Part shown: piece after piece, positions 37,924 through 42,282 of the stretch | Position numbering within the stretch: position 1 is the first letter of the stretch | How the letters are laid out: the number at the start of each line of letters is the position of its first letter | Assembly (NCBI RefSeq): GCF_009905615.1 | Contig: NZ_JAAAKW010000008.1 | Location: 62,001 to 126,000 of the forward strand | Direction of reading: 5' to 3' | DNA: 64,000 bases | From: Pseudomonas sp. SLFW | Lineage (GTDB): Bacteria; Pseudomonadota; Gammaproteobacteria; Pseudomonadales; Pseudomonadaceae | Made by a program: the position numbers and the translations under genes | Notes under the pieces: generated by a model | Database searches by the model: none | What the model saw: the letters and a program-made list of their open reading frames with translations, nothing else | Told to the model about the DNA's origin: nothing

Positions 37924-38595
37924 ATGAAGCCTGTTGTCTCATCGTTGCTGGTGGCTGCCTCTGTTTTTTTTGGCTCGGCCGCCTACGCCGCCACCCTGAC
38001 TGCCGAGTTCGTCGACGCGCAGGGTAAATCGCTGAGCGATGTGGTGCTGACCCTTCAGGGCCCGGCGGGCAAACCCGATCCTGCGCCCAAGGCCGACATG
38101 GACCAACGCGACCAGCGTTTCGCGCCGCATGTCTTGGCCGTGCGCACCGGCACGCAGATCAAATTCCCCAACAGCGACGACATTCGTCACCAGGTGTACT
38201 CCTTTTCTCCTGCCAAACGTTTCGAATTGCGTCTGTATGGCGGCACACCGTCTGAGCCTGTGCTGTTCGACAAGCCTGGCGTGGTCGTACTGGGCTGCAA
38301 CATCCACGACTGGATGCTCGGCTATGTTTACGTGACTGACGATCCCTGGTTCGGCGTGAGCAATGACAAAGGCACGCTGACTCTCGACCAAATGCCTGCA
38401 GGCCACTATGTGGCGACGCTGTGGCATCCACAGGCGCCTGACATGCAGCCTGTGCCAGGAGGCGAAATCGACATTCCGGCCGCGGGTCTGCACAAGCGTT
38501 TCAGCGTTACCGTGCAGCCCAAGGGTGATGACATGCCTGCAACGCCACCGCCCAGCGCGTTCGGCGATGCCTTTCATAAAGCCGCCCATGAATGA
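37924..38595 (+). CDS. periplasmic cupredoxin-like protein
   Basis: A 223-residue exported protein with a signal peptide (cleavage near AYAATLTAE, about 20-25). It has a plastocyanin-type blue-copper fold: His89 in RHQVYSF, then CNIHDWM, giving Cys125, His128 and Met131 as ligands. Such proteins are often labelled methylamine utilization protein, but no mau genes are present, so that label should be avoided. ATG 37924 is chosen over 37867 because the signal peptide starts there. Its stop overlaps the GGDEF/EAL gene by 4 nt. Copper binding is inferred from the ligand set. Confidence 0.82.
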   Translation: MKPVVSSLLVAASVFFGSAAYAATLTAEFVDAQGKSLSDVVLTLQGPAGKPDPAPKADMDQRDQRFAPHVLAVRTGTQIKFPNSDDIRHQVYSFSPAKRFELRLYGGTPSEPVLFDKPGVVVLGCNIHDWMLGYVYVTDDPWFGVSNDKGTLTLDQMPAGHYVATLWHPQAPDMQPVPGGEIDIPAAGLHKRFSVTVQPKGDDMPATPPPSAFGDAFHKAAHE

Positions 38596-40946
38596 AACGA
38601 CGAATTAGCTTTCAGGCACGCATTGCTGGCGTGCTGATCCTGCTGTTGTTGATCGTGGTCAGCGCCGTGTTCGTGGCCGTCCGGGCCGCGACGCAGGACG
38701 CTGTGCGCAAACAGGCCCAGGCTCAACTGGACGTGGGTACGCGGGTGTTCGAGGGTTTGTTGGAGATGCGCGGCAAACGGTTGCGCGACGCCGTGCAACT
38801 GCTGTCCAGCGACTTCGGTTTCCGCGATGCGGTGGCGTCAGCGGACTCGGCGACCATTCGCTCGGTCCTGCAGAACCACGGCGCACGCATCAACGCTAAT
38901 GACATGTTCCTGCTGGGCATGGACGGCAAGGTGCTCTCCAGCACGGTCGAGCAGATTCCCGAAGGCTCACCGTTTCCGTACACCCAGGCGTTGCGCGACC
39001 TGAAGTCCCATAACCAGTCGATGCTGATCGTGCCGCTGCAGGGCAAACCGCACTTGCTGGTCGAAAGCACCGTCATGGCGCCGCTGCCCATTGCTCGCGT
39101 GGTCATGGGTTTCAGCATGGATGATGACCTCGCCCAGGAACTGCGCTCCCTCAGCGGTCTGCAAGTGTCGTTTCTGTCGGTGGTGCATCAGTTGCCGGGG
39201 CAAATCATCAGCACCCAGCCGCAGCCTTTGTACGATAGCCTTCGCGGGGTGATGCTCAGCACCGATCGCGGCCAGATGGTGATGACCGAACACGGCAACC
39301 AAAGCTTTCTCAGCAAACGTCTGGAATTGGGCAACACGGGCGACAGTAATGGCGATCAGGTCGTGGCGCTGCTGCAAAGCCCGCTCGATCAGGCCATGCA
39401 AGCCTTCGCGCCGCTGGATGAAAAGCTGTTCTGGATCACCCTCGTGGCGTTGGCCGGCTCGCTGATTGGCGCGTTGTTGCTGGCGCGCAGCGTGTCGCAC
39501 CCGGTTCGTGCCCTGGCCCTGGCCGCCGAGCGCATTGGCGAAGGCGACTACGGCACGCCGGTGACTCTTGAACGCAGTGATGAACTGGGTTTGCTGGCGG
39601 GCGCGATCAATTCGATGCAAAGCGGCATCGCCGAACGCGAGCAGCAACTGGCGCACAACGCGCTGCACGATGGCTTGACCGGCCTGCCCAACCGGGCGCT
39701 GGTGATGGAGCGTCTGGGCAGTGCGATTGCGGCCGAGCGGGCCGTGGCTCTGCTCTACCTGGGGATCGAGAATTTCCGTGCGATCAACGACAGCATCGGC
39801 CCGGAAGGCATTGAGCAGTTGCTGCAAGTGATGGGCGAGCAATTGCAACTGCCGCTGCGCCCCGGCGATACCGTGGCGCGTTTGTCGGGCAATGAATTTC
39901 TGTTGCTGGTCCACAATGCCGAAGTGGACAGCGCTGTTGCCGTGGCCGACCGCTTGCAACGTCTGTTGCTGAGACCACAACGCATCCACGATCACGATAT
40001 TTCGCTGGACGCCTGCATCGGTATTGCGGCGTATCCCGCCAACGGTGACTCGCCCTCCGAACTGGTCAGGCGCGCCTCGATTGCCCGCCAGGACGCCACC
40101 CAGATGCCGGGTCGTCTGCAAGTCTACGAAGACGGCCGCGACCTGGCGCATCAGCGTCAGATCAGCCTGATTCGCGACCTGCGCCATGCCCCGCGCAACG
40201 GCGAGCTGATGCTGCATTACCAGCCGAAACTGGACATCCGCAACGGTCGCACGCGTCAGGCCGAGGCCTTGCTGCGCTGGCAGCATCCGCAGTTTGGAAA
40301 CGTTTCGCCGGCGGAGTTCATCGTTCTGGCCGAACGCACTGGCAGCATTCAGCTGTTGACCAACTGGGTGATCGAGGAAGCGATGCGTCAGTTGGCAGAG
40401 TGGGGGCGCCGTGGCCTGCACGTGCAGCTGTCGGTGAACATTTCCGCGGACGACCTGCTCAGTGGTGATCTGGCGGACCGTGTGTCGGATCTGCTCAAGC
40501 TGTACCGTGTACCCGCCGAACAACTGATATTCGAGATCACCGAAAGCGCCGTGATGCGCGAGCCAGAGCATGCCTTGAAGGTGCTCAATCGCCTGCGCGA
40601 ATGCGGCATCAGTCTGTCGGTGGATGACTTCGGCACCGGCTACTCTTCACTGGCGCACCTCAAGCGGCTGCCGGTGCAGGAACTGAAGATCGACCAGTCC
40701 TTCGTGCGCAATCTCGATGAGACGAGCGAGGACGCGGTGATCGTCCGTTCCACCATCGAAATGAGCCACAACCTGGGGCTGAAGGTGGTCGCCGAAGGTG
40801 TCGAGTACGAACACAGCCTGCGGCTGTTGGAGCGGTGGCACTGCGATACGGCACAGGGTTATTTGATCAGCCGCCCGCTCACGGCGGTCGCATTCGAGGC
40901 CTGGATTGCCAAGGCTCACAGTTCACCCAGCATGATGATTCACTGA
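38592..40946 (+). CDS. membrane GGDEF/EAL protein, probable c-di-GMP phosphodiesterase
   Basis: A 784-residue inner-membrane protein: membrane helix 9-31, periplasmic sensor domain 32-275, second helix about 279-298, HAMP about 298-350, GGDEF 355-515 and EAL 530-775. The GGDEF motif is degenerate (SGNEF, 432-436) and so probably not a cyclase. The EAL domain keeps EALLRW (558-563), SVNIS, FEITES, DDFGTGYSSL (678-687), LKIDQSF and VAEGVE, the catalytic set of active phosphodiesterases. The ATGA overlap with the cupredoxin gene implies a shared function, perhaps responding to redox or copper state sensed in the periplasm. The ligand is unknown. Confidence 0.9.
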   Translation: MKRRISFQARIAGVLILLLLIVVSAVFVAVRAATQDAVRKQAQAQLDVGTRVFEGLLEMRGKRLRDAVQLLSSDFGFRDAVASADSATIRSVLQNHGARINANDMFLLGMDGKVLSSTVEQIPEGSPFPYTQALRDLKSHNQSMLIVPLQGKPHLLVESTVMAPLPIARVVMGFSMDDDLAQELRSLSGLQVSFLSVVHQLPGQIISTQPQPLYDSLRGVMLSTDRGQMVMTEHGNQSFLSKRLELGNTGDSNGDQVVALLQSPLDQAMQAFAPLDEKLFWITLVALAGSLIGALLLARSVSHPVRALALAAERIGEGDYGTPVTLERSDELGLLAGAINSMQSGIAEREQQLAHNALHDGLTGLPNRALVMERLGSAIAAERAVALLYLGIENFRAINDSIGPEGIEQLLQVMGEQLQLPLRPGDTVARLSGNEFLLLVHNAEVDSAVAVADRLQRLLLRPQRIHDHDISLDACIGIAAYPANGDSPSELVRRASIARQDATQMPGRLQVYEDGRDLAHQRQISLIRDLRHAPRNGELMLHYQPKLDIRNGRTRQAEALLRWQHPQFGNVSPAEFIVLAERTGSIQLLTNWVIEEAMRQLAEWGRRGLHVQLSVNISADDLLSGDLADRVSDLLKLYRVPAEQLIFEITESAVMREPEHALKVLNRLRECGISLSVDDFGTGYSSLAHLKRLPVQELKIDQSFVRNLDETSEDAVIVRSTIEMSHNLGLKVVAEGVEYEHSLRLLERWHCDTAQGYLISRPLTAVAFEAWIAKAHSSPSMMIH

Positions 40947-40960
40947 TCGGGTTCAAGGTT

Positions 40961-41851
40961 ATGACACGTCGTCTCTCGGCTGTTTTCAGCCCTGTGGTGT
41001 TAGCAAGTGTGGTGGGCGGTGCCGGTGGCATGATTGCGCCGGTGGTCGAGGCCGAGCAGGGGCGCCTGATTGCGACCGGGGGTGCGAGCAGCATCGAAGG
41101 CGCGGCGGGCGGCGGGATCATCCCGTGGGCGGTGATTGGCAATTACGACGAGAAAGGCGAATGGGGGGCGAACCTGTTCGGCACCCATATCAACCTTCCG
41201 GACTACACGCTGGACGTCGCGGGTATGGCAGCGTCCTACGGCAATCGCGTGGAAGTGTCCTACGCCCATCAGCGATTTGACTTGGGCTCGCTGGTCCACA
41301 AACTCAGCCTGCCGGAAGACAACCTCACCCAAGACATTTTCGGGGTCAAGGTGCGCCTGTTCGGCGATCTGATCTACGACCAACTGCCGCAAGTCTCGTT
41401 GGGCCTCGAATACAAGCATCAGAACGATTTCGTGATCCCCAGCCTGGTCGGGGCGAAACGCGATTCCGACGTGGAAGGCTATTTGACCGCCAGCCGTTTG
41501 TTCATGGGCGCGGCGTTTGGCTACAACGTGGTGGTCAACGGTGGCGTGCGTTACAGCCGGGCCAATGAAACCGGTCTGCTGGGGTTCGGCGGCGACCGGC
41601 GCGACGACCGCAGTGTCTTGAAGGAAGGCTCGGTGGTCATGCTCTTCAACCCGCGCTGGGCAGTGGGCGTGGAGTACCGCGAGAAGCCGGACAACCTGTC
41701 GTTTGCCGGTGAAAGCGATTGGGCCGACGCCTTTGTCGGCTGGTTCCCGAACAAGCACGTGTCGGTGGTGTTGGCCTACGCGCGTCTGGGCGAAATCGCC
41801 ACGCTGGATAACCAGAACGGCACATATCTGTCTGTGCAGGGGAGCTTCTGA
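40961..41851 (+). CDS. DUF3034 family outer-membrane-like protein
   Basis: A 296-residue exported protein. A signal peptide covers about residues 1-33 (cleavage near VEAEQGRL). The mature sequence has Gly-rich starts (GGASSIEGAAGGGI), alternating polar/hydrophobic strands, and ends in Phe (LSVQGSF), all features of a beta-barrel protein. It resembles DUF3034, which in my memory accompanies this gene set. It follows the EAL gene by 14 bp and its stop overlaps the globin start by one base (TGATG). Role unknown. Confidence 0.8.
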   Translation: MTRRLSAVFSPVVLASVVGGAGGMIAPVVEAEQGRLIATGGASSIEGAAGGGIIPWAVIGNYDEKGEWGANLFGTHINLPDYTLDVAGMAASYGNRVEVSYAHQRFDLGSLVHKLSLPEDNLTQDIFGVKVRLFGDLIYDQLPQVSLGLEYKHQNDFVIPSLVGAKRDSDVEGYLTASRLFMGAAFGYNVVVNGGVRYSRANETGLLGFGGDRRDDRSVLKEGSVVMLFNPRWAVGVEYREKPDNLSFAGESDWADAFVGWFPNKHVSVVLAYARLGEIATLDNQNGTYLSVQGSF

Positions 41852-42282
41852 TGAGGCGGCCTTTGCAGTGGATGGGGATGTGGGGACTGGCCCTGCTGGT
41901 TGGGTGCGCTCAACAGCCGCCCAAGGATGACAGCCTCTATCACGCGTTGGGTGAGCGTGCCGGGATTCAAAGGATCGTCGAGGGGATGCTGTTGCATGTC
42001 GCCCAGGATGATCGGATCTACAAGTATTTCGCGAAGGTCGACATCGTTCGCGCGCGGGACAAACTGGTGGAGAAGTTCTGTGTGGAGGCCGGTGGGCCGT
42101 GTATCTATTCGGGGGATGCACTGCCTGAAGTCCATAAAGGCATGAACATCAGTCGGAGCGATTTCAATGCACTGGTGGAGAATTTGATCGATGCAATGGA
42201 TGAGCAGCATATCCCGGTGCCGACACAGAATCGGCTGATCGCCCGATTGGCGTCGCAGCGTGGCGAAGTGATCGAGAAGTAG
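41851..42282 (+). CDS. group I truncated hemoglobin, lipoprotein form
   Basis: A 143-residue protein. The N-terminus is a lipoprotein signal with lipobox LLVGC (about 15-19), so the globin is tethered in the periplasm. The globin part shows GERAGIQRIVEGML, DRIYKYF and the F-helix YSGDALPEVHKGMNIS with the proximal His. The usual B10 Tyr of trHbN appears replaced by a hydrophobic residue, which would change ligand binding. It is the last gene of the cupredoxin operon. A haem-based redox or NO/oxygen role is inferred. Confidence 0.83.
   Translation: MRRPLQWMGMWGLALLVGCAQQPPKDDSLYHALGERAGIQRIVEGMLLHVAQDDRIYKYFAKVDIVRARDKLVEKFCVEAGGPCIYSGDALPEVHKGMNISRSDFNALVENLIDAMDEQHIPVPTQNRLIARLASQRGEVIEK

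Follow-up and report, generated by a model that had tools for sequence, protein, structure and literature searches.

In many bacteria, cyclic di-GMP (c-di-GMP) decides between attachment and leaving; the signals read by most membrane phosphodiesterases (PDEs) are, to our knowledge, unknown. Heme- and gas-sensing c-di-GMP enzymes (DosP, DosC, the partners of H-NOX and NosP, and NbdA/MucR) couple a diatomic gas or a metal centre to c-di-GMP turnover, with the metal centre in the cytoplasm or in the membrane part. A chain across the envelope is described, in passages of PMC3375315, for the YfiBNR system of Pseudomonas aeruginosa, where YfiR bridges YfiN and YfiB and connects outer membrane, periplasm and inner membrane to a c-di-GMP enzyme. 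Here, a four-gene operon of Pseudomonas sp. SLFW is analyzed that encodes an exported cupredoxin, a PDE, a DUF3034 protein and an exported truncated globin. It lies within a window of 64,000 nucleotides (contig NZ_JAAAKW010000008.1, positions 62,001–126,000 of the forward strand) of a 6.49 Mb genome; coordinates below count from the first nucleotide of the window. YfiBNR, as described in the same passages, resembles this operon in having an inner-membrane c-di-GMP enzyme with a periplasmic sensor and a HAMP domain, a soluble periplasmic protein and an outer-membrane component; its own features are a GGDEF cyclase, a periplasmic PAS sensor, the cysteine-based YfiR, for which no metal is mentioned there, and the peptidoglycan-binding lipoprotein YfiB. 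In contrast, the operon described here has an EAL hydrolase with a dCache_3 sensor, a blue-copper protein, a predicted 12-stranded barrel and an exported globin. Identity of the two systems was therefore rejected, since the enzyme is an EAL PDE with a degenerate GGDEF domain and its partners are a cupredoxin, DUF3034 and a globin; the comparison is restricted to how they might work. In contrast to the heme- and gas-sensing enzymes, the heme protein and the copper protein are each exported here as a polypeptide of their own.

The four genes are co-directional on the forward strand (37924–42282). They encode, in order, an exported type-1 cupredoxin of 223 residues (37924–38595; open reading frame, family profile and predicted structure), an inner-membrane PDE with the architecture dCache_3-HAMP-GGDEF-EAL (38592–40946; Pfam and residues, with the membrane helices assigned by eye), a DUF3034 protein predicted to form a 12-stranded outer-membrane β-barrel (40961–41851; Pfam and structure model), and a lipobox-bearing group 1 truncated globin of 143 residues (41851–42282; Pfam and residue alignment). 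The cupredoxin and PDE genes overlap by 4 nt, a gap of 14 nt separates the PDE and DUF3034 genes, and the DUF3034 and globin genes overlap by 1 nt. These boundaries, junctions and families match to the base those given by a sequence-only reading made earlier of the same stretch.

All four families were searched in one sample of 398 genomes of the phylum, with score thresholds of 140 bits for the globin, 168 bits for the cupredoxin and 117 bits for the PDE sensor that were chosen after the score gaps had been seen. DUF3034 is present in 39 genomes and the exported globin (next score 94 bits) in 41, namely all 39 with DUF3034 plus G154 and G328, leaving 39 genomes with both, none with DUF3034 only, two with the globin only and 357 with neither (Fisher p = 5e-52). 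The cupredoxin is found in 50 genomes, including 38 of the 39 with DUF3034 (not G078) and 12 others (p = 2e-41). The PDE sensor occurs in 49 genomes, 48 of which are cupredoxin-positive; two genomes have the cupredoxin only, one has the sensor only and 347 have neither (p = 2e-58). This pairing also holds without DUF3034 and where the two genes are not adjacent (G142, G158, G126, G015 and G375); pairs in G154 and G021 are weaker, with both partners under the thresholds. This distribution makes the dCache sensor of the PDE a near-obligate companion of the cupredoxin in these genomes, and vice versa. All four families are present in 37 of the 39 DUF3034 genomes, the exceptions being G078 and G019. 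Within the genus of the window, DUF3034 is present in six of the 11 species sampled; the other five lack all four families at these thresholds, with only a distant globin in G130.

Gene neighborhoods lead to the same grouping. At the 39 DUF3034 loci, the globin gene is adjacent in 39, the cupredoxin is near in 33, a true sensor PDE is near in 31, and all four are found in 30; in seven genomes (G389, G225, G261, G213, G246, G126 and G142) the four families are split over two loci. The order cupredoxin-PDE-DUF3034-globin is found in Pseudomonas and relatives, the cupredoxin-PDE pair diverges from DUF3034-globin at L041, L043, L044, L046, L062 and L068, the order DUF3034-globin-cupredoxin-PDE is seen at L060, on Caballeronia plasmids and in Paraburkholderia, and L039 and L072 show DUF3034-globin-cupredoxin. 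DUF3034 relatives occupy at least 588 places in one-genome-per-species data, and the best 80 of these at least 588 were taken as the named loci. All four genes are on one strand in 77 of the 80 (L185 with its PDE frame split), and the remaining three are interrupted by contig ends. Pseudomonads associated with plants or from the environment are frequent among these 80 loci, the nearest to the window, and four of the loci share the cupredoxin and globin with members of the phylum sample. Among the matches listed, the closest named DUF3034 relative is that of Pseudomonas sp. Bc-h (92% identity). Spanning 13 family codes and 27 genera of the 398-genome sample and several gene orders, the grouping is more than chance. 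Co-occurrence, adjacency and membership that is kept despite rearranged gene orders argue for a single functional set made up of all four proteins. The sequence-only reading had named missing co-occurrence in other genomes as the observation that would speak against such a set; the families do co-occur.

With about even probability in our judgment, the operon encodes a sensory module that spans the envelope and governs c-di-GMP hydrolysis in the manner of YfiBNR, with periplasmic parts centred on metals. Within it, the cupredoxin and the PDE are the core pair, joined by DUF3034 with the globin as one of several predicted partners in the outer membrane. Among 60 cupredoxin loci, a sensor PDE lies nearby in 48, and DUF3034 is present in 36, a barrel-like family of ~410 residues in 13 and neither in 11. 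A sensor PDE is nearby in eight of the 13 loci with the ~410-residue family and absent nearby in five. This family has a consensus that ends in an aromatic residue, and its matches to Porin_4 and OMP_b-brl are weak and below cut-off. Homology between DUF3034 and this family was considered and rejected (hhalign probability 7%). Of the 11 loci without either barrel, L158 has a Porin_5 match above cut-off, and the upstream proteins of L161–L163 give weak barrel matches only. Since loci with the ~410-residue barrel are scattered over several places of the cupredoxin tree (midpoint-rooted, no support values), the sequences suggest that the barrel partner of the cupredoxin has been replaced repeatedly. 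The distance correlation is 0.49 (0 of 500 permutations, 48 loci) and reflects shared ancestry in part. At L145 (1085–7121, forward strand) and L148 (1194–7380, forward strand), the cupredoxin and ~410-residue barrel follow a 226-residue protein and an exported-looking protein of ~765 residues, perhaps a TonB-type receptor as judged by eye; the block is conserved in both loci.

Counts of distinct proteins merge those with the same last 130 residues, which gives 133 of 138 cupredoxins, 120 of 124 globins and 133 of 145 PDEs; duplicate rows reflect overlap of the named set with the phylum sample and of L265 with L153. PDE counts cover frames of more than 600 residues, including neighboring paralogues and leaving out the split frame of L185. 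L054, which encodes a GGDEF-EAL protein without the sensor motif, was left out of the counts, and L047 was left out of alignment A3.

The PDE is matched by Pfam to EAL (6e-76), GGDEF (4e-27), HAMP (2e-14) and dCache_3 (6e-9) domains. The dCache_3 match covers residues 40–196 (38709–39179, forward strand) with the family signature D74/G76/L93/R99, and the EAL domain, from Pfam and residue alignment, covers residues 528–762 (40173–40877, forward strand). All eight EAL residues considered (E558, N616, E648, D678, D679, K699, E735 and Q755) are kept in the window, in 114 of 114 distinct PDEs from DUF3034 loci and in 18 of 19 from other loci. The GGDEF motif reads SGNEF and deviates from the diguanylate cyclase pattern [SAG]G[DE][EF]F; a canonical motif is found in 22 of 133 distinct PDEs. 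Because the EAL site is intact and the GGDEF motif is degenerate in most members, c-di-GMP hydrolysis is the likely output: from its residues the PDE should hydrolyse c-di-GMP, with the GGDEF domain at most regulatory. dCache_3 is recognised in 30 of 32 rows of PDE alignment A4, which includes L054, no member of the family. A sequence comparison of the sensor domain with solved structures gave no significant relative (best E 0.06), and a search for a dCache_3 ligand in passages of PMC8694187 returned "dCache" with residue numbers, not dCache_3. DosP was rejected as the identity of the enzyme, given an NCBIfam equivalog score of 339 versus a cut-off of 857 and a sensor that is dCache_3. Some Pseudomonas carry a second dCache-GGDEF-EAL paralogue beside the operon (L048, 4765–7200, reverse strand; L049, 10451–12847, reverse strand), and an additional sensor PDE is next to the operon in 13 of the 80 named loci; these neighbors are reminiscent of an in-place duplication of the PDE gene.

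The copper ligands of the cupredoxin (H89, C125, H128 and M131; codons at 38188, 38296, 38305 and 38314, spanning 38188–38316 on the forward strand) had been picked out correctly by the sequence-only reading and are conserved without exception in the 133 distinct cupredoxins (138 rows before merging). The ligand loop has the form C-x2-H-x2-M, a spacing that we take to be that of amicyanin. A Pfam scan of the window protein gave no match above cut-off; among 33 relatives, nine match Cupredoxin_1 and 21 match the carboxypeptidase-regulatory-like domain at E ≤0.01. The family profile matches the cupredoxin domain of NirK (8e-6) and the archaeal blue-copper protein 5fc9 (4e-4), and the predicted structure (predicted local distance difference test score, pLDDT, 90.5) matches a pseudoazurin with an amicyanin loop, NirK, 5fc9 and amicyanins. 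Sequence and model together place two histidines, a cysteine and a methionine in a predicted cupredoxin fold, as expected for a type-1 cupredoxin. The protein resembles amicyanin and pseudoazurin in the type-1 copper fold and ligands and differs from them by an additional C-terminal immunoglobulin-like domain and a C-terminal tail helix. Relatives carry the label "methylamine utilization protein" in RefSeq; the genetic partner, however, is the PDE rather than methylamine dehydrogenase.

The DUF3034 protein matches PF11231 over the entire profile (positions 1–255 of 255; 370 bits versus a gathering cut-off of 25; 7e-111). The AlphaFold2 model (pLDDT 79.9; poor at residues 1–9, 24–36 and 38–59) has 12 strands over residues 68–295 and a C-terminal phenylalanine. 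The best structural match is FapF (Z 21.0, 221 aligned residues, 2.9 Å), followed by KdgM (Z 18.2), NanC (17.7), a COG4313 channel (17.2) and PcoB (12.9). DUF3034 is therefore predicted from its model to be a 12-stranded outer-membrane barrel of the channel type. The 12-stranded fold is shared with FapF, KdgM/NanC and the COG4313 channels, whereas the aligned parts are merely 7–13% identical. The invariant columns of DUF3034 contain no histidine or cysteine and, except at the start, no methionine. In G261, of the same genus as the window, the DUF3034 frame is shortened to 186 residues covering profile positions 87–255 only (L047, 6176–6736, forward strand); an intact globin adjoins it, and the cupredoxin-PDE pair is elsewhere in the genome (L138). 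The 2.3 Mb genome G078 carries a DUF3034-globin pair (L045, 6349–7722, forward strand) and a second DUF3034-globin copy with broken frames (L077, 6676–7161, reverse strand), which was excluded from alignments and counts.

The globin matches Bac_globin (PF01152, 3e-12, 47 bits versus 21). Its residues include a lipobox cysteine (C19, LLVGC), Phe60 at CD1, His95 at F8 and the cysteine pair C77/C84; the helix labels are those that we take over from HbN. It shares PF01152, the F8 histidine, the CD1 phenylalanine and a GGP-YxG motif with the group 1 truncated hemoglobins (HbN) and differs from them in being exported, usually with a lipobox, in having apolar residues in place of Tyr B10 and Gln E11, and in its conserved C77/C84 pair. 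All 120 distinct globins have the CD1 phenylalanine and the F8 histidine. The distal residues of the window globin are apolar (Leu47 at B10, which aligns to Tyr33 of HbN; Ala68 at E7; Leu72 at E11). The absence of the B10 tyrosine, proposed by the sequence-only reading, holds in the window and in 117 of the 120, which have Leu, Val, Ile, Met or Asn; it fails in the other three, all from Burkholderiaceae plasmid loci. E7 (Leu, Phe, Val, Ile or Ala) and E11 (Leu or Phe) are apolar throughout, and Gln E11 occurs in none of the 120. An O2-binding, NO-dioxygenating hemoglobin of the HbN type, which we take to be marked by Tyr B10 and Gln E11, was accordingly rejected as an identity (Leu47 and Leu72 in the window; Tyr B10 in 3 and Gln E11 in 0 of 120). 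From globin chemistry, as we understand it, and by analogy with NO-selective H-NOX proteins, the apolar distal pocket predicts poor stabilisation of O2. The loss of Tyr B10 is not unique to the exported family, since some more distant globins from other genomes of the sample also lack it (L164, L245, L247, L248, L249, L253 and L254), whereas others have it (L246, L250, L251, L252, L255 and L256). The three plasmid loci (L257, L258 and L259) are on Caballeronia/Paraburkholderia megaplasmids in the order DUF3034-globin-cupredoxin-EAL.

C77 and C84 are kept in 119 of the 120 distinct globins; in the sole exception, from P. matsuisoli (L219, 7843–8262, forward strand), both are replaced, and this joint loss fits a disulfide in the oxidising periplasm. 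A crude lipobox pattern, applied to rows that were not deduplicated, is found in 111 of 124 globins; the other 13 have other exported-looking N-termini or a missed lipobox (at least L051). The globin is thus predicted to be exported and, in the window, tethered; tethering as put forward in the sequence-only reading applies to most members and not to all. A related globin subfamily (L245, 548–1132, forward strand; L247, 983–1456, reverse strand; L248, 1143–1724, forward strand) has the same cysteine pair and F8 histidine, with alanine in place of the CD1 phenylalanine, and the N-terminus of at least the L247 protein resembles a signal peptide.

In the proposed module, a relay would run from the outer-membrane barrel, with the exported globin, through a soluble or shuttling blue-copper protein to the dCache-HAMP region and on to the EAL domain. 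Docking of the cupredoxin on dCache would depend on whether the blue-copper site holds Cu(I), Cu(II) or no metal, and HAMP would then switch EAL. The outer-membrane partner, either DUF3034 with the globin or an alternative barrel, may give an extracellular input or titrate the cupredoxin away, a step modelled on the action of YfiB on YfiR. For the globin, electron exchange with the cupredoxin is one candidate role; another is binding of a diatomic ligand, with O2 poorly stabilised in the apolar pocket. An altered redox or ligand state in the periplasm would be expected to lower c-di-GMP and to lead to detachment or motility. A bolder form of this proposal, possible at best, is a new class of envelope-spanning receptor that combines a PDE, a blue-copper protein as its obligate co-sensor in the periplasm and exchangeable outer-membrane barrels; the DUF3034 type would add a heme input, NO-selective or redox, through an exported, disulfide-locked globin with an O2-disfavouring pocket. 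If true, the cell would read the redox or NO state outside the inner membrane via copper and heme, and lower c-di-GMP.

Several observations weigh against the sensory module. G019 has the cupredoxin without the sensor and G119 the sensor without the cupredoxin, and G078 has DUF3034-globin with neither; G233, a genome that is 73% complete, also has the cupredoxin without the sensor. No sensor PDE is nearby in 12 of the 60 cupredoxin loci, and the divergent PDE of L158 has four EAL positions lost or unaligned. The Fisher values treat genomes as independent, so that shared ancestry inflates their significance, and the thresholds were set with the score gaps in view. Seven genomes have the four parts at two loci; hence co-translation is not essential. 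The role of the globin is the weakest link: no globin is found in the 13 loci with the ~410-residue barrel beside the cupredoxin, and G154 and G328 carry the exported globin without DUF3034. The apolar pocket is not essential, since the Caballeronia globins keep Tyr B10. Additionally, no regulatory motif in 78 upstream regions indicates the signal.

Other explanations were weighed against the same data. The cupredoxin might reduce the exported globin, which would remove NO, peroxide or O2 at the outer membrane, with the PDE merely co-regulated or adjusting lifestyle in parallel. The closest folds of the cupredoxin, pseudoazurin and amicyanin, are electron carriers, the heme-ligand histidine and the CD1 phenylalanine are invariant in all 120 globins, and passages of PMC11976967 propose a periplasmic role for truncated globins as O2 reductases in cable bacteria. 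However, the distribution of the cupredoxin follows that of the PDE sensor (present in 48 of the 50 cupredoxin genomes) and not that of the globin: none of the 12 genomes with the cupredoxin and without DUF3034 has an exported globin of ≥140 bits, with distant globin matches in G064, G233 and G281. Moreover, 117 of the 120 globins lack Tyr B10, a residue that matters for NO dioxygenation by HbN, and electron transfer or detoxification appears rather unlikely as the main function. If the system instead handled or sensed copper, the barrel would pass copper, the cupredoxin would be its periplasmic carrier and the PDE would report copper availability. The invariant ligands agree with this, as does the match of the DUF3034 model to the copper transporter PcoB, which at Z 12.9 is far below FapF and one among many middling barrel matches. 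Because the invariant columns of DUF3034 offer no His, Cys or, start apart, Met, and because the globin is left unexplained, copper handling is considered unlikely.

It seems improbable that the barrel serves to export or take up a polymer or solute, as a channel like FapF, KdgM or the COG4313 proteins, with the PDE tuning its use locally and the metal proteins protecting or licensing it. The best structural matches are indeed channels, FapF acting in amyloid secretion, followed by KdgM, NanC and COG4313, and barrel families are exchanged between loci. A common barrel fold reveals no function, however, and no recurrent gene for amyloid, polysaccharide or substrate utilisation was noticed nearby, the flanks having been read systematically in part of the loci. 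A fortuitous operon of unrelated genes is scarcely credible: the four families are at two loci in seven of the 37 genomes that have all four, yet co-occurrence persists when they are unlinked, and membership is kept while gene order changes.

For the sensory module, the comparative evidence points to the cupredoxin as the protein that a widespread PDE family probably works with in the periplasm, and a metal-based input is predicted for that family. Three orphan families (the DUF3034 barrel, the exported globin and the ~410-residue barrel) gain a common context. No description of this gene set was found in titles and abstracts on DUF3034, truncated hemoglobins, or cupredoxin/dCache_3 with c-di-GMP (subscription papers being outside the scope), and mentions of DUF3034 in the literature found are passing. 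The module looks like an undescribed sensor that adjusts the attached versus free-living state to outside conditions.

Regarding the signal, denitrification was rejected as a requirement, with a NirS or NirK that we judge convincing in eight of the 39 DUF3034 genomes and neither in the genome of the window. For NirS, the profile Cytochrom_D1 exceeds the Pfam cut-off in 14 of the 39, with full-length matches above 400 bits in five (G298, G174, G389, G246 and G320) and the remaining matches weak and propeller-like; NirK is above cut-off in three (G213, G340 and G070). FNR/Anr-type boxes (≤2 mismatches, no shuffle control) were found in eight of 78 upstream regions. NO derived from denitrification is therefore not a general signal. 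Fur-like boxes were found in none of the 78 regions, and neither a sigma-70 promoter pattern nor a terminator was found on the strand of the operon. Given the metal proteins, an input by redox state, copper or a diatomic gas is likely, without any one of the three being singled out. Of the signalling pathway in the sequence-only reading, one functional set with c-di-GMP as output is supported, and redox, NO or oxygen is a candidate signal. A sigma-54-like element, TGGC-N8-TGC, was seen by eye upstream of the cupredoxin gene in the window and its nearest relatives.

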